From the IMG/VR virus record IMGVR_UViG_3300033182_001696, positions 1 through 21,215 of that record: DNA of 21,215 nt; one strand, given 5' to 3'. The DNA comes from a virus. Position 1 is the stretch's first letter. Each line of letters opens with the position of its first letter. Made by a program: the position numbers and the translations under genes. The notes below the pieces were generated by a model. It saw nothing but the letters and a program-made list of their open reading frames with translations. It had not been told where the DNA came from and searched no databases. Below are positions 338 to 17,320 of the stretch, one piece after another.

Positions 338-345
338 GCTATAAT
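338..345 (+). promoter_or_regulatory. Extended -10 promoter of the toxin-antitoxin operon
   Basis: A perfect TATAAT hexamer lies at 340-345 and is preceded by TG one base upstream, giving an extended -10 element. No good -35 box is seen at 17 bases. The expected transcript would start near 352, leaving a leader of about 20 bases before the toxin ATG at 371. This also argues against the in-frame ATG at 344, which lies inside the -10 box. Confidence 0.7.
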
Positions 346-362
346 GTATCTACTCGGATACA
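345..362 (+). promoter_or_regulatory. Palindromic operator overlapping the TA promoter
   Basis: The sequence shows perfect inverted 6-base arms, TGTATC and GATACA, separated by six bases. The palindrome overlaps the last base of the -10 box and covers the predicted transcription start. Antitoxins of this kind commonly repress their own operon through such a site, so this is the natural candidate for binding by the HTH antitoxin encoded at 671. Binding itself is inferred. Confidence 0.6.
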
Positions 363-370
363 CTTGCTTT

Positions 371-667: not shown

Positions 668-670
668 AAC

Positions 671-985
671 ATGAGCAGACCAATCAATGTAGCCAATCTA
701 CCTGAGTTTGATATGGCGTCCCAACTCCGCGATGAAAATGATATCGCGGAATATTTGTCTATGGTCTTAGAAGATGGTGACAGTGATGAACTGATACGAG
801 CAATTGGTCATGTAGCCAAAGCACGCGGAATGACACAGATCGCCAAGGACACTGGGCTTGGGCGTGAGAGTCTCTACAAAGCATTGTCTGCCGGAGCCAA
901 GCCACGATTTGAAACCATTCTGCTTGTTTTGCGCGCACTCAATATAGATCTCAAAGCAGTAAGTCACGGAGTAGCCCATCACTAA
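671..985 (+). CDS. Antitoxin, HTH-type addiction module antidote (HI1420-like)
   Basis: This 104-residue protein follows the toxin by three bases, with a GGAGGAG ribosome site overlapping the toxin's last codons. The N-terminal third is acidic (the start of the partner-binding region in this family, including an I-A-E-Y-L stretch). The C-terminal half is a Cro/CI-like helix-turn-helix with the sequence G-M-T-Q-I-A-K-D-T-G-L-G-R-E-S-L-Y-K-A-L, typical of the putative addiction module antidote family. It should neutralise the toxin and repress the operon through the palindrome at 345-362. The pair probably stabilises the element in its host or acts against competing phages; that role is inference. 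Confidence 0.88.
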   Translation: MSRPINVANLPEFDMASQLRDENDIAEYLSMVLEDGDSDELIRAIGHVAKARGMTQIAKDTGLGRESLYKALSAGAKPRFETILLVLRALNIDLKAVSHGVAHH

Positions 986-1377: not shown

Positions 1378-1853
1378 ACCTTCAACAAATCAACGACATT
1401 ATCTGCACACCGGTCAGCACACTCGCAGAGCTATCAAGCGATTCCCTGTTTCATCTGAAAAATGATGCAGCCGATCAGCTAGCGATGGCCAAAGCACTGT
1501 GCGAACAAGTGGATCGTGTGCTTGAGCACCGCTACAACACCCAGGCTCAACAGCAGCGTCTTTCTGCCGGCAAAGACACGGGCGTCGTGCATTTCGACGA
1601 TGGCGAAGTGCGTATCTCGGCCGACCTTCCCAAGCGTGTCACTTGGGATCAGAAGAAGCTTAATGAGATCGCAAAGCGTATCGCCGCCAGCGGTGAAGAT
1701 CCGGGTCAGTACATCGACATCAGTTACAAAGTATCCGAACGCAAATACGACGCCTGGCCAGACAATCTGAAGTCCTCTTTTGCTGGCGCTCGCACCCTGA
1801 AGACTGGTAAACCAAGCTTCCGCCTGTCTCTACTCGAGGAGGCCCAGCCATGA
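1374..1853 (+). CDS. Conserved phage protein of unknown function, upstream of Sak4-like ATPase
   Basis: This 159-residue soluble protein starts at ATG 1374, with GGAGGTGC upstream and overlapping the previous stop. The open frame extends further upstream, but that part lies over the HTH gene in another frame. The N-terminal half looks helical and the C-terminal half carries the conserved-looking blocks D-L-P-K-R-V-x-W-D-Q, a D-P-x-x-Y-I-D-I-S-Y-K-V run, and T-G-K-P-S-F-R-L. I recall similar proteins next to phage ATP-binding recombination genes, but no function is known to me. It overlaps the next start by four bases, suggesting translational coupling with the recombination module. Confidence 0.78.
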   Translation: MNLQQINDIICTPVSTLAELSSDSLFHLKNDAADQLAMAKALCEQVDRVLEHRYNTQAQQQRLSAGKDTGVVHFDDGEVRISADLPKRVTWDQKKLNEIAKRIAASGEDPGQYIDISYKVSERKYDAWPDNLKSSFAGARTLKTGKPSFRLSLLEEAQP

Positions 1854-2728
1854 GTCTCCCAATTATCTCGGCGGATCAACGCCTAGCAGAAAAGCGTGGC
1901 ATCAAAGGCTGTATCTTCGGCAAAAGTGGCATAGGTAAAACCTCACTGCTCTGGACGCTGGATGCACCAAGCACCCTCTTCTTTGATCTCGAGGCCGGTG
2001 ATCTAGCTATCGAAGGCTGGAGCGGTGACAGCATTCGCCCCAAAACTTGGCAAGAGTGTCGCGACTTTGCCGTCTTCATTGGTGGTCCCAACCCAGCTCT
2101 TCGGGATGATCAGGTCTACAGCCAGAGTCACTACGATGCAGTCTGTGAACGTTTCGGTGATCCGGCAGAGCTAGAGCGCTACGAGACCATCTTTATCGAC
2201 TCAATCACGGTTGCCGGCCGCCTCTGTTTTCAGTGGTGTAAAGGTCAGCCGCAGGCATTCAGCGAGCGCAGCGGTAAGCCCGATATGCGCGGTGCCTATG
2301 GTCTGCACGGCCAGGAGATGATCGCCTGGCTGACGCACCTTCAACACACCCGCAATAAGAACATCTGGTTCGTTGGCATACTCGATGAGCGTATCGATGA
2401 CTACAACCGCAAGCTGTTCACCCCGCAAATCGATGGCTCCAAAACAGGTCTTGAGCTACCGGGAATCGTCGATCAAGTCATCGCTATGGCTGAACTCAAA
2501 GACGAAGACGGCAACCCATTCCGTGCCTTCATCAACCACACACTGAACCAATGGGGCTATCCCGCCAAGGATCGCAGCGGTCGCCTGAATACCATCGAGG
2601 AGCCACACCTAGGCCGACTGATGACCAAGATCAAAAGCCCCGCTGCGCCGGCGCCAGAGCGACTTCGCTTTGACAGCCCCAAAACACTTCAAGAGCCAAT
2701 CAACCCAGAAACAGGAGATGCCTTATGA
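1850..2728 (+). CDS. Phage nucleotide-binding ATPase, Sak4/RecA-like single-strand annealing family
   Basis: This is a 292-residue RecA-fold ATPase. A Walker A motif G-K-S-G-I-G-K-T lies at residues 24-31. A Walker B-like strand T-I-F-I-D-S-I-T has Asp at residue 117. The length and motif spacing fit the Sak4 group of phage recombinases, which anneal single strands for recombination-dependent replication, helped by a partner ssDNA-binding protein. The next gene encodes a plausible partner. A Pro/Ala-rich tail follows residue 262. Starts of this gene and the next overlap by four bases. A less specific label, AAA family phage ATP-binding protein, would be certain; the Sak4 assignment is probable. 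Confidence 0.8.
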   Translation: MSLPIISADQRLAEKRGIKGCIFGKSGIGKTSLLWTLDAPSTLFFDLEAGDLAIEGWSGDSIRPKTWQECRDFAVFIGGPNPALRDDQVYSQSHYDAVCERFGDPAELERYETIFIDSITVAGRLCFQWCKGQPQAFSERSGKPDMRGAYGLHGQEMIAWLTHLQHTRNKNIWFVGILDERIDDYNRKLFTPQIDGSKTGLELPGIVDQVIAMAELKDEDGNPFRAFINHTLNQWGYPAKDRSGRLNTIEEPHLGRLMTKIKSPAAPAPERLRFDSPKTLQEPINPETGDAL

Positions 2729-3336
2729 GCCTCTGGAACGACTTTAACAACGCTGATGATCAGCAATCCTATGACGTCATCCCCAAAGGAACGGTCGCAC
2801 GTGTTCGCATGACGATTAAACCCGGCGGGCTTGATGACCCAAGCCAAGGCTGGACAGGTGGCTTTGCCACGCAAAGCACGATGACCGGGTCGGTCTATCT
2901 CAACTGTGAGTTTGTGGTCACAGAAGGCCCTTTTGCTAAGCGCAAAATCTGGAGCCTTATCGGACTGGAAAGTCCAAAAGGACCTGAGTGGGCCAACATG
3001 GGTCGCAGCTTTATCAAAGGCATCCTGAATTCATCGCGTGGTCTGCACCCTGGAGATCAATCACCTAAGGCTCAACAGATGCGTCGCATCTCTGGCTTTG
3101 CCGATCTGGAGGGGGTCGAGTTTGTTGCCAAGATCGATGTCGACAAAGACCAGAACGGTGAGCTGAAAAACATCATCAAATCAGCTGTCACGCCTGATCA
3201 GAAGGGGTATGCAGAAGCGATGGGCTCGGCTGTTTCGACCCCAGCTCCAAGTGCTTACTCAGCTCCAGCCTCACAAGCAGCTCCTGTTCAAGAGCAACCG
3301 GCTGCACCCAGCGGTCGTCCAGCCTGGGCTCAGTAA
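2725..3336 (+). CDS. Putative ssDNA-binding protein (DUF669-like) partnering the Sak4-like ATPase
   Basis: This 203-residue protein has an N-terminal region of beta character with K-G-T-V-A-R-V-R-M and a central V-Y-L-N-C-E-F-V-V-x-E-G-P-F-x-x-R-K-I-W, resembling DUF669-type phage proteins thought to be OB-fold ssDNA-binding proteins. From about residue 165 it becomes a low-complexity Pro/Ala/Ser/Gln tail, as in SSB linkers. It ends R-P-A-W-A-Q, not the acidic D-D-I-P-F tip of bacterial SSB. Its position directly behind the Sak4-like gene, four bases overlapping, supports a role in single-strand annealing. No catalytic motif is seen. The fold is inferred. Confidence 0.68.
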   Translation: MSLWNDFNNADDQQSYDVIPKGTVARVRMTIKPGGLDDPSQGWTGGFATQSTMTGSVYLNCEFVVTEGPFAKRKIWSLIGLESPKGPEWANMGRSFIKGILNSSRGLHPGDQSPKAQQMRRISGFADLEGVEFVAKIDVDKDQNGELKNIIKSAVTPDQKGYAEAMGSAVSTPAPSAYSAPASQAAPVQEQPAAPSGRPAWAQ

Positions 3337-3348
3337 GAGGGCACTCTG

Positions 3349-5022
3349 ATGATTCTTCGTCCCCGTCAAAAAGTGTTTGTTGAACGCTGTCTATCGGCGC
3401 TCGAGAAACATGACAACACTCTGGGAGTGGCGCCAACCGGCGCTGGCAAAACCATCATGCTCTCGGGTGTTGCGGGACGATGGATCCAGGGAACTCAGGC
3501 GAAAGTGTGTGTGCTCGCTCACCGTGACGAACTCACCGAGCAGAATGCCTCCAAGTTCAGTCGAGTAAACCCGGGTATCGAGACCTCTGTCTTTGATGCG
3601 AGGGAGAAGTCTTGGGAGGGACAAACCACCTTTGCGATGGTGCAGACACTCTCTCGCCAGTCCAATCTGGCACAGATGCCTGCGTTAGATCTGCTTGTAA
3701 TCGATGAAGCTCACCACGCGGCAGCACCCAGTTACCGCATCATCATTGAACAGGCCCAAAAACTCAATCCAAGCCTGAAGCTCTTCGGGGTAACCGCAAC
3801 ACCCAATCGTGGAGACGGCAAAGGACTGCGTCCGGTCTTCAGTAATGTCGCTGATCAAATCACTCTTGCTGAGCTCATTCAGTCCGGTCACTTAGTGCCA
3901 CCTCGCACCTTTGTGGTGGATGTTGGCACCCAAGCCGCACTCTCAGAGGTGAAACGCTCGGCCGACGATTTCGACATGCATGAGGTCGACGCCATTATGA
4001 ACCGCAAGGTCATTACCGAAGCGGTCGTAAAGCACTGGCAGACACATGCAGGCAAACGCAAAACGGTGGTGTTCTGCTCCACGGTTGATCACGCCAATAA
4101 TGTTGCGAACGCCTTTCGACAAGACGATGTAAACAGTGTGGTTGTTCACGGCGCCCTGACCAAAGCTGAGCGAGAGTCTGCGCTTGCGCAGTTTGCCACC
4201 GGCCAAGCACAGGTCATCGTTAACGTTAGCGTCCTCACCGAGGGGTATGACCACCCGCCTATCGATTGCGTGGTATTGCTGCGCCCAAGTTCATACAAGT
4301 CGACCCTGATTCAGATGATCGGCCGAGGGCTTCGCACTGTTGATCCTGAAGAGTATCCGGGTGTAAGTAAGACCGACTGCATTGTGTTGGACTTCGGCAC
4401 CAGTACCCTCATGCATGGATCGCTCGAACAAGAGGCTCTGCTCGACGGTCATCAGGGCTCTGGCAAAGCTCCAACCAAAACCTGTCCAGACTGCGATGCA
4501 GAGGTACCACTCTCTTCTGTGGAGTGCGCGCTGTGCGGTCATGTTTGGGAGCGCACAAACGATGGTGAGAAAACCGAACTCACCGAGTTTGTGATGTCTG
4601 AAGTCGATCTACTGAAGCGCTCGTCATTCCGCTGGTGTGATCTCTTTGGCGATGACACAGCCCTGATGGCGACAGGCTTTTCGGCATGGGCAGGTGTGTT
4701 TTATCTAAACGGTCAATGGTTCGCCGTCGGTGGCGGAAAAGGGCTGGGAACGCACTTGCTCTCGATCGGAGAGCGCACACTTGGCATCGCCGCAGCTGAT
4801 GACTGGTTGAACGAGCACGAAAACGAGGATGCTGCTCTGAAGTCTCGCACCTGGCTGAGCCAAAGTGTCACTCAACAACAACTCAAATACCTGCCAGCTG
4901 GATACCAACAGGACTTCGGACTGACGCGGTATCAGGCATCGTGCCTGATCACTTTCCGCTTTAACAAAAGAGCCATTCAAACACGCATTTTCGCAGCAGC
5001 CAAAACACAGGAGGCTGCCTGA
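3349..5022 (+). CDS. DEAH-box superfamily 2 DNA helicase with zinc-finger
   Basis: This 557-residue protein shows the full set of SF2 helicase motifs: Walker A A-P-T-G-A-G-K-T at 28-35, D-E-A-H at 119-122, T-A-T-P at 149-152, a helicase C-terminal domain with V-V-F-C-S-T-V-D near 240, and motif VI Q-M-I-G-R-G-L-R at 322-329. A four-cysteine zinc ribbon follows (C379-x2-C382, C393-x2-C396). The last 160 residues form an accessory domain I do not recognise. The layout resembles phage members of the RecG/UvsW/type III restriction-like helicase group, so unwinding or branch migration of replication and recombination intermediates is expected. It is preceded by an AGAGG site and overlaps the next start by one base. 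Confidence 0.9.
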   Translation: MILRPRQKVFVERCLSALEKHDNTLGVAPTGAGKTIMLSGVAGRWIQGTQAKVCVLAHRDELTEQNASKFSRVNPGIETSVFDAREKSWEGQTTFAMVQTLSRQSNLAQMPALDLLVIDEAHHAAAPSYRIIIEQAQKLNPSLKLFGVTATPNRGDGKGLRPVFSNVADQITLAELIQSGHLVPPRTFVVDVGTQAALSEVKRSADDFDMHEVDAIMNRKVITEAVVKHWQTHAGKRKTVVFCSTVDHANNVANAFRQDDVNSVVVHGALTKAERESALAQFATGQAQVIVNVSVLTEGYDHPPIDCVVLLRPSSYKSTLIQMIGRGLRTVDPEEYPGVSKTDCIVLDFGTSTLMHGSLEQEALLDGHQGSGKAPTKTCPDCDAEVPLSSVECALCGHVWERTNDGEKTELTEFVMSEVDLLKRSSFRWCDLFGDDTALMATGFSAWAGVFYLNGQWFAVGGGKGLGTHLLSIGERTLGIAAADDWLNEHENEDAALKSRTWLSQSVTQQQLKYLPAGYQQDFGLTRYQASCLITFRFNKRAIQTRIFAAAKTQEAA

Positions 5023-5360
5023 TGTTGTGTGCAATTTGCGGGCGTGAAGGTCGCGGGTTCTGTTGGGTATCACCCAGACGCGCTGACAAACAGAGAACCT
5101 TCAAACGCTTCTGCTCAATGGCCTGCCAAGAGATTCATCAACAACGATTTAAAGGAGGTCATGTGACTGACCCTACTCATAACGAAAACGCGGCCGTGGC
5201 CGCTGTCCTTCCAGTGCTGGGTGATTACGTCGCCAAGATTGGTATGGACAAGCCTCTCGCTGACTACAGCCGCGAACAGATTCTGCAACTGATCGAAACC
5301 GTCCTCGATGGCTACTTTGCCCATCTGCGTGCCAACACGCCTGACGATGTGCCGTTCTAG
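5022..5360 (+). CDS. Small DUF6511-like phage protein with N-terminal Cys motif
   Basis: This 112-residue protein starts at ATG 5022 within the helicase stop. The N-terminus holds paired cysteines (C3, C6, then C14 and a later C-S-M-A-C), looking like a small zinc-binding treble-clef or FCS-like finger. The C-terminal half contains D-P-T-x-N-E and a helical Y-S-R-E-Q-I-L-Q-L-I-E-T-V-L-D-G-Y segment like those I associate with DUF6511 proteins. Function is unknown; its place among recombination genes suggests DNA metabolism. A strong AAGGAGGT at 5152-5159 stands before an in-frame GTG at 5163, so a shorter 66-residue product of the C-terminal half may also be made. Confidence 0.72.
   Translation: MLCAICGREGRGFCWVSPRRADKQRTFKRFCSMACQEIHQQRFKGGHVTDPTHNENAAVAAVLPVLGDYVAKIGMDKPLADYSREQILQLIETVLDGYFAHLRANTPDDVPF
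5151..5165 (+). promoter_or_regulatory. Strong internal ribosome binding site and GTG start
   Basis: AAAGGAGGT, almost a full anti-SD match, lies four to five bases ahead of GTG 5163, which is in the frame of the surrounding gene. The downstream part is the DUF6511-like region and would give a 66-residue product. The site is encoded by Phe-Lys-Gly-Gly-His codons, so chance cannot be excluded, but its strength exceeds that of the annotated upstream start at 5022. Confidence 0.5.
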
Positions 5361-5369
5361 GAGGTTGCG

Positions 5370-6128
5370 ATGTTGGACTTTAATTCATCTAACAACCTGA
5401 GCGAGCGTATCACCGCCTTCATCGATGAGGGGTTGGCAAAGGATCGTAATGCTCAAACCCCACGAGACTACCTTGGTGCCTCACGGTTGGGCGTCGCGTG
5501 TGATCGGGCGCTGCAGTACGAATACCTTAATGCACCCGTCGATACCGGACGTAAGTTCTCAGGTAAAACCCTGCGCATCTTTGAGGCCGGCCATGTCTTT
5601 GAGGAACTGGCGATTAAATGGCTGCGTGATGCGGGCTTTACGCTTCTCACAGAGACTGCGACGGGAGGTCAATTCGGCTTCACTGCAGCCGGCGGTCGGC
5701 TGAAGGGCCATATTGACGGCGTCATTACAGCCGCGCCAGCAGAGCTGGGGCTGACTTTTCCGATGCTATGGGAGTGCAAAAGCCTCAACAACAAATCCTG
5801 GAACGATACCGTCAAGAAAGGAGTCACGATTTCCAAGCCCGTCTACGCCGCCCAAATGGCGATCTATCAGGCATACATGGAAACCGATATCCCGGGCACC
5901 TCTGAGCACCCCGCTCTCTTCACCGCCATCAACAAAGACACCGCCGAGCTCTACTTTGAGTTGGTGCCGTTCAACGCGGAGCTGGCCCAGCAGGCATCGG
6001 ATCGTGCAGTGCGAATCTTGAATGCCTGCGAGGCTCATGAGCTGTTGCCCAGAGCTGCCGCCGATCCCTGTCACTTCACCTGCAAATTCTGCGCATGGCA
6101 GGAGCGTTGCTGGGGAGGCCGGGCATGA
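5370..6128 (+). CDS. PD-(D/E)XK exonuclease, Cas4/RecB-like with Fe-S cysteines
   Basis: This is a 252-residue nuclease starting at ATG 5370 behind a TAGGAGGT site. Visible motifs are G-H-I-D-G with Asp116 and W-E-C-K-S with Glu135 and Lys137, the PD-(D/E)XK catalytic core. A later Q-M-A-I-Y-Q-A-Y-M motif matches the RecB-family Q-x-x-x-Y. Cys44 in A-C-D-R-A together with Cys238, Cys241 and Cys247 near the C-terminus form the four-cysteine Fe-S pattern of Cas4 and AddB. It most likely degrades one strand of linear DNA to provide substrate for the Sak4-like annealing protein, the role of lambda Exo. No CRISPR genes are near, so a CRISPR adaptation role is not suggested. It overlaps the next start by four bases. 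Confidence 0.87.
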   Translation: MLDFNSSNNLSERITAFIDEGLAKDRNAQTPRDYLGASRLGVACDRALQYEYLNAPVDTGRKFSGKTLRIFEAGHVFEELAIKWLRDAGFTLLTETATGGQFGFTAAGGRLKGHIDGVITAAPAELGLTFPMLWECKSLNNKSWNDTVKKGVTISKPVYAAQMAIYQAYMETDIPGTSEHPALFTAINKDTAELYFELVPFNAELAQQASDRAVRILNACEAHELLPRAAADPCHFTCKFCAWQERCWGGRA

Positions 6129-6340
6129 GCAATATCGTTTGGCTCGATTTCAACGATGCGGCCGATCAGCCATCTGAGGACCAGCCATCCAAGCCGACCA
6201 CACAGGAGATCAAACAGCGTCTGCTTGAACGACTACCAGATGTGCTCGGCTCTCTGCTCCCGCGAGGCGTGACGCGCGGCAACCAGTTCCTCGTGGGCGA
6301 TCTGAACGGCAACAGAGGCAAGAGTCTTGTATCTATAAAC
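6125..6340 (+). pseudogene. N-terminal fragment of phage DNA primase/helicase, fused in frame to gpW
   Basis: Starting at ATG 6125, about 69 residues match the beginning of phage primase/helicase proteins as I know them: I-V-W-L-D-F-N-D-A, then L-L-E-R-L-P-D-V-L-G, then R-G-N-Q-F-L-V-G-D-L-N-G-N-x-G-K-S-L-V. In full-length relatives this is followed by the conserved W-H-D-F-A-x-G-x-G-G-D block, zinc-binding and toprim or helicase domains, hundreds of residues more. Here the frame runs after G-K-S-L-V into S-I-N-R-E-E-R and directly into gpW. No primase active site remains. The rest of the primase and everything between it and gpW, including both terminase genes, is absent. Confidence 0.75.
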
Positions 6341-6352
6341 CGCGAGGAGCGC

Positions 6353-6580
6353 ATGACCGAACTGACTGTTTTAAAACAACGCCTGAGCGAAGCCGAAGAG
6401 GCTCTGCATCAGTTACTGACAGGCCAGAAGGAGGCCAGCGTTAACGTCGGTGGATTCGGCAGTATAACCTACTCAGCAGCCAATCAGTCTGAGTTAGTGC
6501 GCTACATCGCGCAGTTAAAACTCGATATTCGCCGACAAGAGCGGGGCATTGGCCGACGCGCTCTGTTTGTGGAGTTTTAA
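6353..6580 (+). CDS. W: gpW-like head-tail joining protein
   Basis: Seventy-five residues from ATG 6353 match the lambda gpW family: an N-terminal helix T-E-L-x-x-L-K-Q-R-L-x-E-A-E-E-A-L-H-x-L-L-T-G, a beta hairpin with S-I-T-Y-S-A-A-N, and a second helix L-x-R-Y-I-A-Q-L-K. gpW closes the filled head beneath the portal and provides the platform for tail attachment. It has its own GAGGAG site at 6344-6349. The frame continues upstream into a primase fragment, but a separate start here gives the usual family length, so this domain is probably intact. It is followed two bases later by the portal start, the lambda order (W then B). Confidence 0.82.
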   Translation: MTELTVLKQRLSEAEEALHQLLTGQKEASVNVGGFGSITYSAANQSELVRYIAQLKLDIRRQERGIGRRALFVEF

Positions 6581-6582
6581 CC

Positions 6583-7425
6583 GTGGCACAACGTGATACG
6601 CGAGACACGGCCCACAGAGCCGCCTCATTAACGGCGCGCGAGTTAACCAGTTGGCAGCCTCGAACAGGCTCCGCTGACAGCGACCTCGTCGATGAGCTCG
6701 GTACCCTTGTCTCGCGTTCAAGGGATTTAGCGCGTAACCACGGTGTGGCTTACATTGCCGCTCGTAGCGACTGGAAAGTTCGCCTGCAAGGCGGTGCGAT
6801 TATTCCGGTATTCCCAGGCGACAAGGTCTCTGCATTTACACCGAGCCGCCCCAACAGTGGCTACGGACAGTTTGTAGAGAACGTGCTACGCCATATTGGC
6901 ACCGGTTTGAACATCCCGTTCGAACTATTGATGAAGGACTTCTCGAAAACCAACTACTCCTCAGCGCGCGCTGCACTTATGGAGGCCTGGCGTTACTTCA
7001 TGGGCCGTCGTCAGTGGTTAGCCACCTATTGGGCGCGCCCGGTGTATGAGCTCTGGTTAGAGGAAGCGATCAATAAAGGGCTGATTGAAGCACCCAACTT
7101 TTATGGAAACAAAGCACTCTGGACACGTTGCAAATGGATTGGTCCAGGGCGTGGTTGGATCGACCCCGTCAAAGAGGCCAAGGCCTCGCAGCTTCGCCTA
7201 GAGACGGGACTTTCCACGCTGGAAGATGAGTGTGCAACTCAAGGATTGGACTGGGAAGAGGTGCTTGAGCAACGGGCTCGCGAGCAGAGCAAAATGCGCG
7301 AATTGGGGCTATCCATTCAACCGATCATGCCAGAGCCAGGAACTGACCCAAGCAACGGCCAACTAAATACCGAACCAGATCACTTACCCGATGAAACCAA
7401 CACTCAGACCAACACCCCTGTTTAA
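6583..7425 (+). pseudogene. Lambda-type portal protein with a large internal deletion
   Basis: The reading frame (GTG 6583, GGAG upstream, 280 residues) joins two separated parts of a lambda B-type portal, normally about 500 residues. Residues 1-56 are the N-terminus, ending R-S-R-D-L-A-R-N-H-G-V-A. From about residue 66 the text is the C-terminal half: I-I-P-V-F-P-G-D-K-V, T-P-S-R-P-N-S-G-Y-G, L-L-M-K-D-F-S-K-T-N-Y-S-S-A-R-A-A-L-M-E-A-W. The roughly 220 residues between them, containing the clip and much of the wing and crown, are missing although the frame stays open. Such a protein could not form a normal dodecameric channel. The C-terminal tail is low-complexity, as usual in this family. 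Confidence 0.82.
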
Positions 7426-7443
7426 CTTAAACGAGATTCACTG

Positions 7444-8796
7444 ATGCGATTTTGGAACTACGCCACCGGAACACCCTGGGCAATGACAGAGCCCTCACTC
7501 GATACGGTGCTCACGATTGCCAAGCGCGAGCAGGACTCGATCGAAGCCATCACAGAACGACTAGGCCGCCCGTTAGAGCACAGCCATCAAATTACGATGT
7601 ATGGGCAAACGGCTGTCCTTCCGGTTACCGGCCCGTTGTTTCGTTACGCCAATTTGTTTACCGCCATCAGTGGTGCCACAAGCTATGAGGTGCTTGCCCG
7701 TGAACTTGGACAAGCACTGGATAATCCAGCTGTTCAATCGATCATATTGGATATCGATTCACCCGGCGGCGAGGTCAATGGCTGCGCCGAACTGGCGAAC
7801 CTGATTTACCAAGCCCGTGAGCGTAAACCGATCATCGCCTACTGCTCAGGCGATGCCGCTTCCGGTGCCTACTGGATCGCCTCAAGTTGCAAACGGATAG
7901 TGATTTCTGAGACTGCCTCTCTTGGCTCTATCGGTGTCGTGGGTATTTATAAACGTTCAAACGATGCCGAGCAGTTCGAGATCGTTTCATCACAAAGCCC
8001 TTTTAAACGACTCGATCCTCAAGACGAAGGAGACCGCACTCGACTGCAATCTCGTATCGATGCGCTGGCCGAAATCTTTATTAGCGCGGTTGCCAAACAC
8101 CGGGGACTTGATCCGCCAACCGTCAAAGCACAATTCGGGCAGGGTGACCTACTGATCGGGGCTCAAGCCGTAGCACAGGGCTTAGCCGACAGCATCAGTA
8201 CGCTCGATCAAACCCTTCAAGAACTCAACAACCAGCAAACTTATGAATCCAGCCCTGCCACTGCGCAGGGCTTTTTAGTATCCAACTCTTTATCCAAAAA
8301 GGAGGCCGACATGCCTGACCAACACAACCGACAGCCCCAATCGGGCACAACCCCGGAGGCGAGCGGTTCAGTCGATCCGAAGGCCTCGCTTTCACTAAGT
8401 AATTTAAAAGCCGATCACCCACAACTAATTCAGGCGCTTCACGAGGAGTGGACACAGGCCAATGCAGGTACCGTCCATACCCAATCAATTGAAGCGGGTC
8501 GTCAGAAAGAGCGTGAGCGCATTGCTGCCATTCTAGACTCTGACACGGCTGAAGGTCGTGAATCCTTGGCCCGTCATCTGGCCTTTGCCACCGATATGAG
8601 CGTGGATATGGCAACCGCTGCAATGTCCGCAGCTCCCAAACAATCAACCTCACCTGCAAGCCATACCAGCGGCTTTGAATCCTCCATGGCGCAGATGAAC
8701 AACCCAGCGATAGAACCGGCAGATGAGAGTGCCTCGGATGATGCTGACAACCTCGCACAGCGCATCGCTCGATACTCACGTGGAGGTGCACTATGA
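7444..8796 (+). CDS. S49 family head maturation protease with C-terminal scaffold (lambda C/Nu3-like)
   Basis: This is a 450-residue protein with the lambda gpC plan. The S49 (SppA-like) protease domain covers about residues 1-270 with D-I-D-S-P-G-G-E-V, then G-D-A-A-S-G-A-Y-W with likely nucleophile Ser140, then S-L-G-S-I-G-V-V-G, and Lys188 in S-P-F-K-R as the probable general base, 48 residues later as in SppA. From residue 290 the sequence is the charged, Ala/Ser-rich scaffold, also made separately from 8311. It trims capsid and scaffold proteins during head assembly. The ribosome site ahead of 7444 is weak (CGAG). A terminator-like hairpin lies in the linker at 8251-8276. It overlaps the gpD-like gene by four bases. 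Confidence 0.9.
   Translation: MRFWNYATGTPWAMTEPSLDTVLTIAKREQDSIEAITERLGRPLEHSHQITMYGQTAVLPVTGPLFRYANLFTAISGATSYEVLARELGQALDNPAVQSIILDIDSPGGEVNGCAELANLIYQARERKPIIAYCSGDAASGAYWIASSCKRIVISETASLGSIGVVGIYKRSNDAEQFEIVSSQSPFKRLDPQDEGDRTRLQSRIDALAEIFISAVAKHRGLDPPTVKAQFGQGDLLIGAQAVAQGLADSISTLDQTLQELNNQQTYESSPATAQGFLVSNSLSKKEADMPDQHNRQPQSGTTPEASGSVDPKASLSLSNLKADHPQLIQALHEEWTQANAGTVHTQSIEAGRQKERERIAAILDSDTAEGRESLARHLAFATDMSVDMATAAMSAAPKQSTSPASHTSGFESSMAQMNNPAIEPADESASDDADNLAQRIARYSRGGAL
8251..8276 (+). terminator. Terminator-like hairpin inside the protease-scaffold gene
   Basis: An eight-base-pair GC-rich perfect stem (AGCCCTGC with GCAGGGCT, six-base loop) runs straight into five T. It has the anatomy of an intrinsic terminator but is read through as the protease-scaffold linker (codons for P-A-T-A-Q-G-F-L). 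It stands 34 bases before the internal scaffold start at 8311. It could uncouple protease from scaffold expression or pause ribosomes or polymerase; translation across it would tend to suppress termination. Confidence 0.6.
8311..8796 (+). CDS. Nested capsid scaffold protein (Nu3-like), internal start
   Basis: An in-frame ATG at 8311 is preceded by AAAAAGGAGG, a much stronger ribosome site than that of the full-length protease gene. It gives a 161-residue product equal to the C-terminal part of the protease fusion, as lambda Nu3 does with gpC. The protein is hydrophilic: a Gln/Pro/Ser-rich start, a helical Q-K-E-R-E-R-I-A-A-I-L stretch, and E-G-R-E-S-L-A-R-H-L-A-F then M-A-T-A-A-M-S-A-A-P similar to the scaffold part of this family. 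It would organise capsid protein assembly and then be removed by the protease. The nested start is strongly supported by sequence and by the family precedent. Confidence 0.85.
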   Translation: MPDQHNRQPQSGTTPEASGSVDPKASLSLSNLKADHPQLIQALHEEWTQANAGTVHTQSIEAGRQKERERIAAILDSDTAEGRESLARHLAFATDMSVDMATAAMSAAPKQSTSPASHTSGFESSMAQMNNPAIEPADESASDDADNLAQRIARYSRGGAL

Positions 8797-9173
8797 GTTT
8801 GCAAGGCATCGCCAGTGGCGTCACCACTCAAGGGGTATTCACACCCGAAAATCTAATTGCCGGTGAATTTCCACGCATTATGCGTATCGAAACCATCACC
8901 GGCGGGCAGTCACTCCCTCAGGGGGCGGTACTGGGTCAAATCACCGCAACCGGAGCCTATGTACTCAGCACCACCACAGCAACCGATGGCTCGGAAGTAC
9001 CGGTCGCGATTCTTGCGCAACCGATCGATGCCACATTGGATGTTGAAGGACATCTATTTCTGACAGGTGAGTTCAACGCGCTTGCTCTGACACTTGGCAG
9101 CGGCCATACGCTCGCAAGCGTCACTGAAAGCTTCCGTACTCGCTCCCTTTTCATTCGAACCAACCAACCTTAA
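8793..9173 (+). CDS. gpD-like head decoration protein
   Basis: This 126-residue protein matches the lambda gpD head-stabilising family in length and pattern: G-E-F-P-R-I-M-R-I-E-T-I near the start, G-A-V-L-G-Q-I-T-A-T-G-A-Y-V-L, an A-x-D-G-S-E-V-P-V-A-I-L-A-Q mid-region, and the C-terminal S-F-R-T-R-S-L-F-I-R. gpD trimers plug the threefold points of the expanded capsid. It overlaps the protease-scaffold stop by four bases and has TGGAGGTG upstream. The gene looks intact even though its capsid partner downstream is cut short. Confidence 0.9.
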   Translation: MSLQGIASGVTTQGVFTPENLIAGEFPRIMRIETITGGQSLPQGAVLGQITATGAYVLSTTTATDGSEVPVAILAQPIDATLDVEGHLFLTGEFNALALTLGSGHTLASVTESFRTRSLFIRTNQP

Positions 9174-9188
9174 TCCGGAGTCCCCACC

Positions 9189-9638
9189 ATGGATATATTT
9201 TCAACGCACGTGCTCAACCGGGTGGTGGAGCAACTGGAGCGTCCAGCCTCTTTTTTGCTGGACACCTTCTTCCCCTCGATTCAAACCGAGGAGAGTGAAG
9301 AGATACACTTTGATATTGATAAATCAAAACCGCGTCTGGTGCCGTTTGTCTCGCCACTGGTAGAAGGCAAGGTGGTATCGGCAGAAGGCTTTGAGACTCG
9401 CAGCTTCAAACCCGCATACGTCAAAGATAAACGCCGCTTTGACCCCAACGCGCCACTGAAGCGCCTAATCGGTGAGACCATTGGGGGTTCACTCGCACCG
9501 ATGAACCGTCGAGAGGCCGCGCTCAATCGCGCGCTGACCAATCAGGTCGAGAACCTCACCCGTCGTGAAGAGGTGATGGCAGCCGAGGCACTGCGCACAG
9601 GTAAGATCACCGTGGCTGGCGAGGACTATCCGTCTTCA
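9189..9638 (+). pseudogene. gpE-like major capsid protein, C-terminal half missing
   Basis: From ATG 9189 (CCGGAG site) about 148 residues follow the lambda gpE major capsid family: F-S-T-H-V-L-N-R-V-V-E, an F-F-P segment, V-P-F-V-S-P-L-V-E-G-K-V near residue 57, F-K-P-A-Y-V-K-D-K-R, and E-A-L-R-T-G-K-I-T-V-A-G-E-D-Y-P. Full family members are about 340 residues. After D-Y-P-S-S the similarity stops at about 9636 and the frame runs on to 9761 through about 40 Cys/Arg-rich residues that are the tape-measure gene read out of frame. The missing part contains much of the capsid core, so this product should not assemble. Confidence 0.85.
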
Positions 9639-9645
9639 GTCACTA

Positions 9646-12123
9646 GGTCTCGAACCTTCAGCTGCGGCCCTGCGCTCGTATGGCAACACCGCCTCGGCGA
9701 TGGGCAAAGGCTTGATGCAGTTTGTGGAAGCGATTGCCGATGCTGCTACCGGAGAGTTTGAGCGCCTCAAAGAATTCGGCATCAAAGCGCGCACGCAGGG
9801 CGAACAGGTTACATTTACCTTTCAGGGTGTCAGTACCACCGTTGCCAAAGAGAGTCAGGCAATTGAGTCTTACTTGCGACGCATCGGCCAGGTGCAATTT
9901 GCCGGCGCGATGTCCGAGCAGATGGCTACCCTCAACGGCATTATTAGCAACATTCAGGACAACCTATCACGCCTCGCGCGTGAAGTCGGTGCCGGCGGTC
10001 TGAATGATGCGCTCAAAGATATTGCTGTCGATCTGCGCGAAACCACCGTACGGGGTAATGAAGCTGCGCGTGCTCTAGGTGAGTCGCTTGGCGATGTCGT
10101 TCGCACCAGTGCCGATGCATTGGGCTTTATGGCGCGTCATGCCGATGTTGCCGTCAAAGGGTTGGGCGCACTGCTGATTGCGCGTACCGTTGCGGGCGCG
10201 CTCACCCTGATGAACGCCACAATCATCGGTAATGCCGGTGCCATTATCGGCCTTCGAATGATGGCACAGGTCTCACTGATTGCCGCCACTCGCCTTGCAG
10301 TTGTTGAAGGCGCAGCACGTTTAGCATCCGTAGCGATGGTGGGACTGCGTAGCGCAATGGCGCTGGTCGGGGGCCCCGCCGGTATCGCGGTATTGGCTGG
10401 TTTTGCCCTGTGGGAGTTGGCTCGCAGCCAAGATGCGGCACGCCAAGCCGCTTCAGATCATGCAGCGGAGTTGGATGAGATACGTGCACAGGCCAAACGC
10501 GCGGCCGAGAGCATTGAAGATTTAACCGCCGCAACGCGCGATGAAGCCTTAGCGCGTTGGACTGAAAAACTGATCACCGCCGAGCACAACGTAGCGGATG
10601 TGATGGAACAACTCAAAACCGAATGGTGGACCGGCTCCATCTGGGATCGTTTGGGGCGAGTAGGTTCCGACCTACAAGAGAAGCTTGAGTGGACGCGCCG
10701 CTGGTTCCAGATGGGTGTCACCTCGGTGGATGAGTACCGAGCGTCCATCTGGAAGTTGGCACAAGACCATCCCGAATTTACTGCGACTGCGCGAGCGATA
10801 TCCGATCAAATCGACGCCCTGAAAGCGGCCGAGTTAGCCGCTTCACATGCACGCGAACAGATTGATCGTATTAGAAACGGCTCAAGTACCTCTTCGAACG
10901 AGACAGGGCAACCTGAAGATTCGTTAGCACCGGCTTCGCCACCCTCAGCGCCTATCGATACTAAGCGCTCTGAACGTATTCAGGCAGCTATTGCTGATCT
11001 GCAAGCCGAGGAGACAGCATTACGACGACTGATCACAGCACGCTCAGAGAGTGAAACAGCTGTTAATCAGGCCATGTTGCAAACCGAACAGGAGCAAGCG
11101 CTTCGCCGCTTAGGATTGGATCAAACACAAAACCTAACCTCTGCCGAAGCTGCATTAGCTCAACAAATTCGTGATCTGATCGCCTCAAAAGCGATACTCG
11201 AACGACAAGATCAATCGGCCATCGATCGGGACAAAAACCATCGAGAAGCGATAGAGGAAATCACTCGCGCATACCTGGGCCTTGGTTCTGAAACCGACCA
11301 AGCACGTGCCAAAGCCAATCAGTGGCGCAATGAAGCGCTGGCAGGACTGGATGCAACGCGCGAAGGTTATGCCAGCTTTGCCGCTCAGGTTGAGGCTATC
11401 TACCAAAACATGCTGGCAGAGGCCCGTGCCAAAGATCTCGAAAGCTCACGCCTTTGGGAGGATGGGTTAACCCGCGGGTTCAAGGCCGTCTTGGACGAAG
11501 CTGAAGATATGGCCTCACAAACCGAGCGACTGGTGCGCAACGCCTTCAAAGGGATGGAAGATGCGCTGGTCTCGTTTGTAACTACCGGCAAGTTTGATTT
11601 TAAGTCCTTTGCGGACTCTATTATCGCCGACCTACTTCGTATTCAGATTCGCCAGAGCATTACTCAGCCAATCGCCAATGCGCTAGGCAGTATCAACTTT
11701 GGTTCATTTTTTGGCGCAGCGCATACCGGTGGAGTGATTGGCGTTGACGGCCTGCAGTCACGGCAGGTGAGCCCATCAGTTTTCGCTGGGGCGCCTAAGT
11801 TTCATAGCGGTGGAGTCATAGGCGACGAAGTTCCGATCATCGCTAAACGCGGCGAAACCGTCTTTACGCCCGGCCAAATCCGCGCTCTAAAGGATCAGCG
11901 CAGCTCTGCTCCTGTCAACGTTGAAGTCAATGTCATCAACAAAGCCAGCGGTGTTGATACGCGCGTTCAGCAACATCAACAGCCAGATGGTGGGCTGCGA
12001 CTTGACGTGTTCATCGAACAAATTGAAGGGCGGATGGCGAGAGCCATTAGCCAAGGAACCGGCATTGCACCAACCCTGGAGCGCCGGTACGGATTAAACC
12101 CAGCGTATGGAGCGGTGCGATGA
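9646..12123 (+). pseudogene. Tape measure protein, N-terminus missing
   Basis: About 825 residues of a lambda H/TP901-type tape measure remain. The coding text can be traced upstream of the first ATG (9700) to about 9646, reading L-E-P-S-A-A-A-L-R-S-Y-G-N-T-A-S-A-M-G-K before entering capsid sequence, so the true N-terminus and ribosome site are lost. Recognisable parts are the E-R-L-K-E-F-G-I-K-A and F-T-F-Q-G-V-S-T-T-V block, hydrophobic segments around 10130-10420, long Ala/Gln/Arg helices, and the C-terminal F-K-S-F-A-D-S-I-I-A-D-L-L-R-I-Q-I-R block followed by Gly-rich A-H-T-G-G-V-I-G repeats. The tape measure sets tail length and enters the host envelope. ATG 9700 might still give an N-truncated product. 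Confidence 0.87.
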
Positions 12124-12608
12124 CCACCGTGAACAATCTATCGCTCTGGCCTGAAACACTCCCACCACCGCTGGTGGAGGGTTATAGCCTATCACCCAGA
12201 CCAAGTTTGCTGCGCACCGAGATGGAAACCGGTGCAGCACGTCATCGCCTGCGGTCACTCACGGTTCACTATCAAGTGACCGCTGAATGGCGATTTACCC
12301 AGGATGGGCTCGCCATATTTGATGCCTGGTGGGCACAGAACACTCGCATGGGGGAGCAGTGGTTTGTGATGCCACTCGCCGTGCCATTGGATATCCAAGC
12401 GGTTGAAGCTCGCTTTCTTGGCCCCTGGCAGGCAGAACTTCTCCCCGCGAAACGATGGCGAGTCAGCGCTCGCATGGAGATCCGAGACTTACAAAGACTC
12501 ACCGAAGACGAGCTCGCCGTAGCCTCCGTCTATGGCGATCCCGCTATGCAGCTAGCCGATCGACTTCACAAGTGGCTTCACGAACGGATGCCTGAACTTA
12601 AATTTTAA
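12120..12608 (+). CDS. Minor tail protein (tail-tip region)
   Basis: This 162-residue soluble protein overlaps the tape-measure stop by four bases. It begins with L-W-P-E-T-L-P-P-P-L-V-E-G-Y and has alternating aromatic and charged strands (Y-Q-V-T-A-E-W-R-F, W-F-V-M-P-L, W-R-V-S-A-R-M-E-I-R), suggesting a beta-rich fold. I have seen this P-E-T-L-P type of start in siphophage proteins lying right after the tape measure, where the distal tail proteins are encoded. A role at the tail tip or distal tail is inferred from position; no enzymatic motif is visible. Confidence 0.68.
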   Translation: MTTVNNLSLWPETLPPPLVEGYSLSPRPSLLRTEMETGAARHRLRSLTVHYQVTAEWRFTQDGLAIFDAWWAQNTRMGEQWFVMPLAVPLDIQAVEARFLGPWQAELLPAKRWRVSARMEIRDLQRLTEDELAVASVYGDPAMQLADRLHKWLHERMPELKF

Positions 12609-12617
12609 GGATCGATT

Positions 12618-13469
12618 ATGTCTCTCAAAGACCGCTTAGACAGCTCTGTTTCCCAGTTAGAAACTGACTCAAACCTGGTTCACGACTGGGCGCATGGTGA
12701 CAGCCAAAAGGTCATTAGCACCGAAGGTGGTAACGTCCGTTCACCAGCCAAGCTTATTGCAGATAAAGATGCAGAGATTAATACCGGTGCAGAGAGCCTA
12801 CTATCACATGCAACTAAAGCCGTAGCCGATGCTTCAACATCGGCAGAAACAGCAGCAGAAAAAGCATCCGAAGCGTCTACATCTGCGAAGGAAGCCAACA
12901 CGTCTGAAGATAACGCCGCGGACTCTGCCAGTGCTTCAGCGTCCAGCGCCACGAGTGCAGCAAAGTCAGCAACAGCAGCAAGCAGCTCCGCCAAAGCGGC
13001 TGCAACCAGTGCAAACAATGCCGCTACTTCTGAAGCCAATACGAGTACGTTGGCTACTGAAGCGGCCAATTCGGCAGATGCAGCCAGTTCCAGCGCAGCC
13101 ACCGCATCAAATGAAGCGACAGACGCACAAAGCAGTGCAACACTGGCAGAGAGCTTTGCCAATGGGGCCGACGCATCTGCAAAGGCCGCCCGAACATCTG
13201 AAACACAGGCTAATACCAGCGCAGCAGGTGCTCAAACCTCCGCGGAGAAGGCAGCATCCTCCTCACTGACGGCAAGCAAACAAGCAGACGCTGCGCGGGA
13301 ATCTGCAGTTGCAGCCCTTGCAAGTGAAAGCGCATCAACCCAGGCAGAAAGCGCGTGTGCTGACTATGTGGAGTTAGCCGATACCCTGGTGATCTCTCCC
13401 TATGCCCGCATGGCTTCCCAACTGATTCGTACCCAAGCAGTCGTGGTTGATCACCACGCCTTCACCTGA
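12618..13469 (+). CDS. Ala/Ser-rich coiled-coil tail fibre stalk protein
   Basis: Of 283 residues, positions 60-245 are almost wholly Ala, Ser, Thr, Glu, Asn and Lys, in a loose heptad-like pattern (A-A-x-S-A, S-A-x-x-A-A), typical of lambda Stf-like tail fibre stalk repeats. The first 50 residues include V-H-D-W-A-H-G-D, and the last 35 change to hydrophobic S-P-Y-A-R-M-A-S-Q-L-I-R-T-Q. The likely role is a trimeric stalk or adaptor joining the tail to the larger fibre encoded next. It has no receptor-binding head of its own. The repeat composition makes the opposite strand open as well; I treat that as a shadow. Confidence 0.72.
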   Translation: MSLKDRLDSSVSQLETDSNLVHDWAHGDSQKVISTEGGNVRSPAKLIADKDAEINTGAESLLSHATKAVADASTSAETAAEKASEASTSAKEANTSEDNAADSASASASSATSAAKSATAASSSAKAAATSANNAATSEANTSTLATEAANSADAASSSAATASNEATDAQSSATLAESFANGADASAKAARTSETQANTSAAGAQTSAEKAASSSLTASKQADAARESAVAALASESASTQAESACADYVELADTLVISPYARMASQLIRTQAVVVDHHAFT

Positions 13470-13485
13470 TTAAAAAGGAGCCGAT

Positions 13486-16107
13486 ATGGCTGATACCAGT
13501 AATAGTCCATTAATGGCTGAAGTGGCAGCGCTCACAGAAGCGACCACCGAGTTACTGACTAACGTTAATGTGCGCAAAAGCACCTTAGATGAGAAAGTCG
13601 ATGACGCGGCTGCTAGCGCACAATCTTCAGCGCAAAGCGCTACCGCCTCAAACGAGAGTGCTCAGCTTGCCGCGACAGCCTTGGAAGAGACAGAACTAGC
13701 ACGTGACACCACCTTCACCTATCGTGATGAAGCCGTTGCCGTGGTCACCAGCAATGATGGTTCGTTTGAATCTGCGCCGGGTAAAGTTCCAGTAGCAGGG
13801 CTGGATGGCAAAATTGATTATGACTATTTGCCGCTTCTGGAGCACAACTCCATAGTGGCTGAGGCGCTGATACAGGCAACTCATGAGAATCTTCAGGACT
13901 TTTTTGAAGATCGAGAAGTCAGCACTCAAGTTGTCCAAAACAGCAACCAACTTTCCGAACTGACGGCTCATGTCGACAGTGAAGTAGCTCGGCTTAATCA
14001 ATCGATAGACTCAATTGAGCCAGGCATACCCCCTGTCTATAAAGGGCTGATCGAGCAAGATTTTCTCGTCGATGGCTTTGAGTCAGCCTACACCGCAGAG
14101 ATTTTGCGAGGCATGGGTGGATCGGGGCTATACAGCACTCGTAACTATTCGATAGATGATGGCTTCCAAGCATTACACCGGCCTTTCACAGTCACCTCCA
14201 CGGCACAGTTTCAGCATAACCACCCAAACTACTACCGCATGGTGGGGTTGGGCGAACTATGCGCCATCGTCAACGGCTACTACGTGCGCACCACACATAA
14301 CGATCCGACACTGATTGATCAGGATGGGGCTATTCTCAGTGCTCCGGAAGTACCAGCATCGGTGCTGGCAAAGCCAACGGGTATTTCGCTCAACGGAGAT
14401 GGATCCGTCAGTATCGATACCGCTGGTGACACTCAAGCTAGATACATGCGCAATCTATTTACTGATTCGCTTGAAGATACCCGACTGGACCTTCTTTATT
14501 TGGAAGTGTGGCTTGAGAAACTGCCTGTATCGGGCGAACTGAATACGACAATCCAGTCATTCCGCCATCAGGAGAACGCCAATAAGCTGCGCGACCTACT
14601 CAACTTCGCAGAGAAACTAAACTTCTCCGGAGCCAAGGATCTACCCGAAAACGGCTCTTTCAGAAGTGGTGTCATCACACTGGTTGATGAGAATGGCGTG
14701 CCAGAATATGCCTACGTCAATTACCGATTGCGCGCCCGTTCAGTAGGCAAACTGGCCGATCGTGTTACTAAAACCAGTTACACCGCCGGCGACCAAACGC
14801 CTGCTATCTCATTTGGGGTTGTCGCTTCCAGCTTTGGGGGTACCCACGGTCACGCGCTAGATGTTCCGCTAACCGCCGTTGAAATGAATAGCCTGCTCAG
14901 CGGCGGCACGCTTTACGTTGAAACCAGTTATGGGAAATCCCCTGCATCTCCAGATGCTGAATCGCACTCCCATCTTCGAGAAATCCGTTGGAATGGAACC
15001 AGTTTAGTCGGCAGTTCGCTGGGGGCTAGAGCAGAAGGATCCGAAGCGGATACCTTCGTAGCGGTTGCAAGCACACCTCCTAGCATTACTAGTTACCGAA
15101 AAGCGGACGGTAGTTACGGTGGCACAATCAATTGGATTATTGGGACCTCACCCCATCAGCACCCAATGGATATTCAGAGCGTACAAGACCGTTTCCCGTT
15201 CGATCTGGATAAAGCGGTACGCCATATTATTGATGACACAAACCGCTTTAAACTGGTGAAAGATTCTGAAGCCCTAAACCGCCTTCGTGAACGGAGTAAC
15301 GCTAACGCCGGTTGGGTTGAACTAGCGCTGTCCGGGCTTGCGCGCTTCACACTAGATCAAGAGAGTATGGATGCACTCTGTACTCAAATTTGGGGGCTTG
15401 ATGGCGAGGGAGCGTATATCCCAGAAGCCATCAACTCATATGGCACCACCTTCACAACCTATAACGTCGTCGGCAGTGCTCAGGCAAACCTCGCAAAATA
15501 TAACCGCACCTACAAAATCGGCAGCAGCGACGCAGCAGGCCGAACAGTTGCGCGGCGTGGCTTCAATGACCCAACCCTGTATGTAGCACGCACCACAAAA
15601 CCGAATGTGGTTGAAGGTTACAGCTACATGATTCCACTAGAGCTGATCGTCCGATCACCCCTAGAAGTCTGGAATCCCTGGGATCTAATCACAATTGATG
15701 GTAATGGCAGCCAAGGTACTGGTGCCGGCACACAAGCGAGCCCCTGGAATGCTGCTTACACTCGGTTGTGGTGGAATCTAATGCCACCGAAGTTCTTCTC
15801 TGCCGGCGTTTCAGACCCCGCCGATACAACCTCAGGTGGCGTTTGGATTAAAGCCCAAGACGGTAATGCCTACCCAGCCGACAACTCCGGCATCACCATT
15901 ACCCGTGGCAATGCCGCTGACTACCGTGATGCCAATAACGCGCTGCTTTCAAATACCTTCCGATTTCGTTACGCGATTGCCCCTGCGTGGCATGAATTTA
16001 CTTACTCCAACATCCAGCTGAACAACTTCAAAAACACCATCAAGGAAGTATTGAAAGAAGTCGTTGCTGGCACGGCCACAGACAGCGATATCGAAAAGCT
16101 TCTCTAA
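13486..16107 (+). CDS. Large tail fibre / receptor-binding protein
   Basis: This 873-residue protein has an AAAAAGGAG site. Residues 1-80 form an Ala/Ser coiled coil like that of the preceding gene. Then comes G-K-V-P-V-A-G-L-D-G-K-I-D-Y-D-Y-L-P, the linker pattern often seen in Stf-like fibres. The remaining 650 residues are a long Gly/Asn/Thr-rich region with frequent aromatics, expected to be beta-structured. Four H-x-H pairs are seen: H244/H246, H454/H456, H494/H496 and H557/H559, possible metal sites. It is probably the main host-recognition fibre. The exact family and receptor cannot be told from sequence. Confidence 0.75.
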   Translation: MADTSNSPLMAEVAALTEATTELLTNVNVRKSTLDEKVDDAAASAQSSAQSATASNESAQLAATALEETELARDTTFTYRDEAVAVVTSNDGSFESAPGKVPVAGLDGKIDYDYLPLLEHNSIVAEALIQATHENLQDFFEDREVSTQVVQNSNQLSELTAHVDSEVARLNQSIDSIEPGIPPVYKGLIEQDFLVDGFESAYTAEILRGMGGSGLYSTRNYSIDDGFQALHRPFTVTSTAQFQHNHPNYYRMVGLGELCAIVNGYYVRTTHNDPTLIDQDGAILSAPEVPASVLAKPTGISLNGDGSVSIDTAGDTQARYMRNLFTDSLEDTRLDLLYLEVWLEKLPVSGELNTTIQSFRHQENANKLRDLLNFAEKLNFSGAKDLPENGSFRSGVITLVDENGVPEYAYVNYRLRARSVGKLADRVTKTSYTAGDQTPAISFGVVASSFGGTHGHALDVPLTAVEMNSLLSGGTLYVETSYGKSPASPDAESHSHLREIRWNGTSLVGSSLGARAEGSEADTFVAVASTPPSITSYRKADGSYGGTINWIIGTSPHQHPMDIQSVQDRFPFDLDKAVRHIIDDTNRFKLVKDSEALNRLRERSNANAGWVELALSGLARFTLDQESMDALCTQIWGLDGEGAYIPEAINSYGTTFTTYNVVGSAQANLAKYNRTYKIGSSDAAGRTVARRGFNDPTLYVARTTKPNVVEGYSYMIPLELIVRSPLEVWNPWDLITIDGNGSQGTGAGTQASPWNAAYTRLWWNLMPPKFFSAGVSDPADTTSGGVWIKAQDGNAYPADNSGITITRGNAADYRDANNALLSNTFRFRYAIAPAWHEFTYSNIQLNNFKNTIKEVLKEVVAGTATDSDIEKLL

Positions 16108-16147
16108 CTATCCCTTCGCTAATTAATTCCCCAATGAGGACCCAATC

Positions 16148-16996
16148 ATGACCGTAGAAACAGATCTACAAAATGCTGTGGCAGCAGCCTCGGCACTTAA
16201 TCAAACTGTTCGAAGTGAAATTGATGCGATAGATGCAGCCCTCGAGAACGCGATCACTCAAAACCAGACTCAAACCAACGACGCCATCAGCTCCTTGGAC
16301 TCGAAGGTGACGAATTATGTTTCGAACGCAAGAGGAGAGTATCCACTGCCTCCGAACTTAATAAGCAATAGTTTTATGATAGAGCTAGAGGAGGCGCTGC
16401 CCTTAGGATTTGGGTACTCCGGTGTCCAAATTGAGGCTGTTCACCCCTATACACATGCATTTGAAGGACCCTATGTCGAGAATAAACCTTCAACAGCAGT
16501 GGATGATATTACCCTAGCAACCCAATCAACCCCTTATTGGTTTGGAAGGTACAACAAAGGACCTCGAATCTCACGAGGTGGACTTGCCGATGGATGGAAC
16601 GGTATTGGCACCGGACACATTCTGAAAATCACAGCTTCACCAAGTGACACAAGATCATGGACCACCGTGTATTTCCCCATGGCACGATTAGCCAGCACCA
16701 ATCAAATTGGTTTCAGGGGGTATTTAAAGATTGTTCAAGGAACATCTGCCGGTTTCGGTACGGATAGTGGCTATCAAGGATCACCACGTGGTTATACCGT
16801 TACAAAAAACCAAACAGATGCCGCGCCTCAAGGATGGCTAAAGCTAGCTTTTACTCGAGGTACATCCCAGGTTACTAGACCAATGTCATCAAACTTCTGC
16901 CTGGGCTTTCGACGCGATGAACCAATTGAAGCATACCTAGCCCTTCCATACGCCTACATTCCAGCGGGCGCCTCGCCGGGCATTGTTCTTGAATAA
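16148..16996 (+). CDS. Second, shorter fibre-type protein
   Basis: This 282-residue protein starts at ATG 16148 behind TGAGGA. Residues 1-60 are a predicted coiled coil (N-A-V-A-A-A-S-A-L-N-Q-T-V-R-S-E-I-D) resembling the start of the preceding fibre. From residue 68 there is a beta-rich, aromatic and Gly-rich domain with P-Y-W-F-G-R-Y-N-K-G-P-R and W-N-G-I-G-T-G. The plan of stalk plus compact C-terminal domain suits a tail fibre or adhesin tip. The DNA is more AT-rich than neighbouring tail genes, which may mark a swapped host-range segment. No specific family is recognised. Confidence 0.6.
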   Translation: MTVETDLQNAVAAASALNQTVRSEIDAIDAALENAITQNQTQTNDAISSLDSKVTNYVSNARGEYPLPPNLISNSFMIELEEALPLGFGYSGVQIEAVHPYTHAFEGPYVENKPSTAVDDITLATQSTPYWFGRYNKGPRISRGGLADGWNGIGTGHILKITASPSDTRSWTTVYFPMARLASTNQIGFRGYLKIVQGTSAGFGTDSGYQGSPRGYTVTKNQTDAAPQGWLKLAFTRGTSQVTRPMSSNFCLGFRRDEPIEAYLALPYAYIPAGASPGIVLE

Positions 16997-17006
16997 GGAG
17001 TGAAAG

Positions 17007-17309
17007 ATGAAAGTATTTATCGAAAACGATTTCTTTGGAGATTTCATTAACCAAACCGAGGCCGAAGAAATACTAAAAATAAGTGAAATACCGATTGATA
17101 CGGTTCGCTTTGAGGCCAGGCCAAATGAAGCTCGACGCCTATGTGCCAGTCACATCACCCATCATTATCCAGAATGGAAGCAGTTAAACATCCTGCGATC
17201 TGGTGATAAAGATGAACTAACCAGAATGAGCATCTTTATTGATTCCTGTAGAGCTTGGTCAAATGAAGACAAGCCATCCCCTGTCACCCTTCGCTCAATT
17301 ACGCCCTGA
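17007..17309 (+). CDS. Small protein following the fibres, possible fibre-assembly companion
   Basis: This 100-residue protein has a TAAGGAGTG site that overlaps the previous stop. The C-terminal portion (H-H-Y-P-E-W-K-Q-L-N-I-L-R then M-S-I-F-I-D-S-C-R-A-W-S) resembles the Y-P-x-W-K-Q-x-N helix pattern seen in small proteins next to phage tail fibre genes, some of which act as fibre-assembly chaperones. It is directly downstream of the fibre genes and shares their lower GC content. The chaperone idea is inference; it may equally be a small structural component. Confidence 0.55.
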   Translation: MKVFIENDFFGDFINQTEAEEILKISEIPIDTVRFEARPNEARRLCASHITHHYPEWKQLNILRSGDKDELTRMSIFIDSCRAWSNEDKPSPVTLRSITP

Positions 17310-17320
17310 GGAGACTGTTA

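Follow-up and report, generated by a model that had tools for sequence, protein, structure and literature searches.

The stretch of DNA that we analysed (the window; virus record G000, 21,215 bases) lacks, compared to its closest relative, 16.65 kb in four blocks of about 1.9, 9.1, 0.7, and 5.0 kb. Two readings survive the analysis, deletions that occurred very recently or an artefact of the assembly, and these are the very alternatives, recent deletion or bases removed between contigs, that an initial annotation of the sequence had put forward. We lean towards the first of them, according to which an integrated lambda-type phage would have lost four internal blocks very recently by illegitimate end joining. 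The weights that we give to the two readings are judgements and were not computed.

Comparison With Relatives Reveals Four Joints

Among the records of the viral collection, the one most closely related to the window is G001 (IMGVR_UViG_2910798829_000001; 43,750 bp), whose first features are smpB (identified by eye) and a tmRNA gene and which encodes a serine-type integrase. Its gene order is the same as that of the window, and the DNA identity amounts to about 91% over window positions 645-9631 and to 85% over 9627-16209. Unlike the window, G001 possesses all four blocks, with complete primase, terminase, portal, capsid, tail-tube, and tape-measure genes. Alignment of the two sequences yielded the collinear blocks 645-6330, 6330-6751, 6747-9631, and 9627-16209 with 85–92% identity, whereby order and orientation at all joint edges are as in G001 and no foreign DNA is present. 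For the region at 16.2-17.3 kb there is no close relative, so that it lies outside the joint comparison; within the tail-fibre region 16148-17309 only 62 residues are common with relatives, and this region was probably swapped as a module.

Further relatives were found in metagenomes (L117, L118/L112, L197, L199, and L113 from IMG 3300045135; L198 from 3300043015); no mention of the relatives’ IMG identifiers was found in papers. They mostly share 89–93% DNA identity with the window in the aligned parts (86% for L112 right of joint 3), and those that reach a joint run on, collinear with G001, into genes that are missing from the window. The partial relatives reaching the joints (L117, L118, L119, L197-L207, L003-L005) break against the window at identical positions. 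Since these sequences and G001 are mutually collinear and break only against the window, the change has to lie on the window side. The three joints that had been noticed from the sequence alone were confirmed in this way, at 6330, 6750/6751, and 9627/9628, with the relatives collinear and the break in the window exactly there. The accompanying statement that all joints fall within 3.3 kb has to be corrected: a fourth one (joint 0) lies at the far left end at about 129-132, and the edges of joints 1-3 extend from 13,256 to 31,335 in G001 (~18 kb). The 3.3-kb spacing arises because the intervening DNA is lost, so that the argument drawn from the clustering of the joints is no longer valid.

At joint 0, amino acids 1-43 of ORF 1 resemble G001 5323-5451 (about 54% at the amino acid level), the start of a 414-aa ORF, and amino acids 44-110 resemble G001 7315-7516 (about 90%), the end of the next ORF. 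Ten relatives, including some that are only about 40–55% alike, have the two parts separately at a distance of about 1.85 kb, and the fused form occurs in none of the ten. At the portal gene, the open frame upstream comprises at least 230 codons in 72 of 73 related loci and 89 codons in the window; thus, the portal break of the window is not a matter of chance. The sole locus with a short upstream frame among the 73 is L186 (IMGVR_UViG_3300006915_000003; 115 codons), which possibly presents a frameshift or another broken portal. Neither the exact sequences of joints 1-3 nor the window-specific sequence left of joint 1 was matched in the viral collection, in a search that may not cover near-identical records.

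The reading frame is kept at three of the four joints, but as this has a chance of about 0.11 it does not count as evidence. The overlaps at joints 1-3 (TA, TT, and TA) measure about 2 bp each; a sum of 6 bp at three joints has a chance of about 0.03 and a sum of 5 bp one of about 0.08, which is a weak signal. No sequence longer than 10 bp is common to the edges of any deletion and none is in register, and homologous deletion between repeats was therefore ruled out.

Gene Content of the Window and of the Missing Blocks

According to PHROGs and Pfam, the head genes are ordered gpW, portal, S49 protease, decoration protein, and capsid E, followed by a lambda-type tape measure and a J-like protein (Table 1). 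This gene order assigns the window to the lambda-type tailed phages (siphovirus gene order). In the fusion at joint 1, the gpW part is recognised by phrog_75 and PF02831 at amino acids 88-149, and the intact primase/helicase of G001 has 733 aa. The capsid protein is broken at about residue 147 of 343, and the tape-measure match to phrog_1716 starts at position 141 of 943, the G001 version being full length. The distal tail genes are intact where testable. It had been claimed that all other genes are intact; this holds where relatives allow a comparison (645-6331 and 11605-16230), but not for the fused ORF 1.

Table 1. Genes of the window and joints at which DNA is absent compared to G001.
Feature	Position	Strand	Remarks
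ORF 1, in-frame fusion of two genes of relatives over joint 0	1..333	+	
Joint 0	129..132		1861 bp absent; overlooked in the initial annotation
Toxin-like gene (344-667, phrog_3445) and repressor (671-985, phrog_4268), both intact	344..985	+	
Early genes, intact: Sak4-like annealing protein, helicase, Cas4-type exonuclease	1850..6128	+	PHROGs
Primase/helicase start fused in frame to gpW head-tail adaptor	6095..6580	+	
Joint 1	6329..6331		9101 bp absent (G001 13256 to 22357); overlap 1-2 bp (TA)
Portal remnant, 280 aa vs. 515	6583..7425	+	phrog_21, PF05136; intact form in G001
Joint 2	6750..6751		705 bp absent (G001 22778 to 23479-23483); in frame; overlap TT
Head maturation protease, intact	7444..8796	+	phrog_53, Peptidase_S49
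Head decoration protein, intact	8793..9173	+	phrog_49, PF02924
Major capsid protein E, N-terminal part	9189..9626	+	PF03864, phrog_29; first part only matched
Joint 3	9627..9628		4984 bp absent (G001 26351 to 31331-31335); out of frame; overlap TA
Tape-measure protein without N-terminal part (about 140 aa)	9643..12123	+	
Distal tail genes to J-like tail protein	12120..20398	+	phrog_384, 396, 329, 469, 31
Two small genes, DUF6127 and phrog_6637	20431..21215	+	Final stop codon ends the record

The DNA missing compared to G001 comprises most of the primase/helicase, an RuvC-like resolvase, an M15-type endolysin, a ParB-type methyltransferase, and both terminase subunits. Also absent are 235 portal codons, the C-terminal portion of the capsid protein, connector-like proteins, a tail-tube protein (PF18906), an assembly chaperone, and the tape-measure start. 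The lambda-type packaging site usually adjoins the small terminase gene, and because this place is part of a missing block, the packaging site was probably lost together with the small terminase region. Judged from its genes, the window copy should be dead for replication, packaging, and virion building, in agreement with the earlier description as packaging-dead, since the terminase genes lie in a missing block. The ability for lysis would likewise be lost as far as recognised genes go. Lysis genes had been thought to be kept and spared by selection; however, the recognisable endolysin is located in the missing DNA, and none of the window proteins scanned was recognised as a lysis protein.

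Compared to G001, the window has truncated genes for primase, portal, capsid, and tape measure and none for the two terminase subunits, the endolysin, and the tail tube; it would thus qualify as a cryptic prophage, in which essential genes are missing or truncated. Like the window, known cryptic prophages with large deletions have lost replication, packaging, head, and lysis genes and kept distal tail genes (PMC7744054). Unlike in these, secondary decay was not detected in the window and its four losses are apparently very recent. The window is either a cryptic prophage of the ordinary kind or an artefact, and in both cases it adds no new type of element.

Edges of the Record Suggest a Trimmed Provirus

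The record opens with the ATG of one gene and closes with the stop codon of another. Such an ATG start and stop-codon end would result from provirus-type trimming at gene boundaries, and in MetaVR, a related resource, provirus edges are trimmed with geNomad and CheckV (PMC12807716). As the edges of the window are a start codon and a stop codon, as in a trimmed provirus, we infer that the record represents an integrated provirus. The bacterial genomes searched contain only relatives at about 63% amino acid identity or below, the phage records searched gave only distant matches, and nothing matching the window was found in the plasmids searched.

Substitutions and Indels Argue Against Slow Decay

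In order to date the losses, we counted codon changes of a single base that are private to the window branch or to the branches of its relatives; gpW does not belong to the set of broken genes. In this set, 9 nonsynonymous and 52 synonymous private changes fell on the window, compared to 29 and 274 in the relatives (Fisher P 0.25), and the neutral expectation is 2.72 nonsynonymous to 1 synonymous. Relaxed selection was thus not detected in the broken genes. Neutrality over 5% of the private branch of the window fits the data, whereas from 8% upwards it is rejected (P 0.036 for 8%). There are no gaps over 645-6331 compared to L198, none in the early genes compared to L198 and L199, and none over 11605-16230 compared to L113; the only indels elsewhere in the testable stretches are a cluster of small compensating ones at 20878-20913. 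The substitution test cannot distinguish a very recent deletion from an assembly drop, because both leave the codons intact.

Recent Deletion or Assembly Artefact

We consider recent deletion the somewhat better explanation. An integrated lambda-type tailed phage, whose record was trimmed at gene boundaries, would have lost the four blocks by illegitimate end joining that involved little homology or none, and a cryptic prophage would have resulted without DNA replication, packaging, head, tail tube, or recognised lysis ability. The conserved order and orientation, the overlaps of about 2 bp, the absence of repeats, the private changes in the broken genes, and the record edges of the trimmed-provirus type speak for deletion, and we infer that the loss occurred in a cell rather than in assembly. 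In incomplete prophages, replication, packaging, and release genes are lost first while tail-fibre genes stay (PMC7744054), and the losses in the window fit this bias. If real, the window shows a prophage shortly after its inactivation, while the order of events is not yet obscured by point mutations, and would help in studying how bacteria disarm prophages.

A serious competitor, to which we assign a probability short of even, is that the genome is intact and four unresolved stretches were dropped between correctly ordered contigs by closing gaps or removing Ns. Four simultaneous clean losses with no damage elsewhere and purifying selection up to the present would be expected from such an artefact, and four kilobase-scale losses without point-type damage elsewhere are unusual for neutral decay. 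Moreover, the island between joints 1 and 2, flanked by the 9.1-kb and the 0.7-kb loss, measures only 420 bp and resembles a small contig in a scaffold, and the joints are carried by no second record, in a search that may not cover near-identical records. Both points weigh against deletion. On the other hand, N bases are absent from the window and from G001, both of which were checked, and ordering a 420-bp piece over a 9.1-kb gap would need long-range links. In addition, 72 of the 73 related portal loci in the collection are uninterrupted, which argues against collapsed gaps as a widespread problem there. If the window is an artefact, it illustrates that collapsed gaps in viral records can mimic defective prophages or satellites.

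It is improbable that the deletions go back to one catastrophic event, in which several breaks were rejoined by microhomology and all four blocks disappeared at once; such an event would leave only recombination, regulation, and distal tail genes.

The retained distal tail and recombination genes could suggest a helper-dependent satellite or a domesticated tail element, which we regard as very improbable. The terminase genes, the likely packaging site, the tail tube, the chaperone, and the tape-measure start are lost, and the form is common to no relative. A satellite would be expected to recur in a conserved form in several hosts, and no record with the same joints was found, in a search that may not cover near-identical records. 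The initial annotation had considered reliance on a helper, which is not supported in view of the loss of the terminase genes and probably of the packaging site, and satellite-type genes were not recognised in the window. Its objection to a self-sufficient tailocin was well founded: a tailocin has a complete tail set including tube and tape measure, which the window lacks, because the tube (PF18906) and the chaperone are located in a missing block and the tape measure is truncated. The window is therefore a poor candidate for a satellite or a tailocin.

Chimaeras from multiple displacement amplification of a low-input sample have hardly any probability. Such chimaeras often join at a complementarity of at least 2 bp (PMC1855051), and the overlaps found here are also about 2 bp. 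However, all four joints are direct and inversions do not occur, whereas joins in direct orientation at less than 10 kb account for 11 of 475 published chimaeras (PMC1855051), so this explanation was rejected for its wrong orientation pattern. Equally slight is the chance of an old prophage remnant that decayed slowly: several genes are broken, but relaxed selection was not detected in them and indels are nearly absent elsewhere, and slow decay was therefore rejected, as the earlier doubt about gradual decay had anticipated.

Smaller Differences Among the Relatives

Besides the joints discussed above, two smaller length differences were observed. G001 lacks about 254 bp of the toxin-like gene (phrog_3445), which is whole in the window. 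The gap is located at 7572-7575 in G001 and at nearly the same point in L198 (1274-1276), so either G001 and L198 have a common deletion or the window gained the stretch. In L197, about 66 bp are gone within the Sak4-like gene at about 492-497 (window 1955-2016) with a 6-bp edge overlap, which is a small deletion in the same style as the joints of the window.
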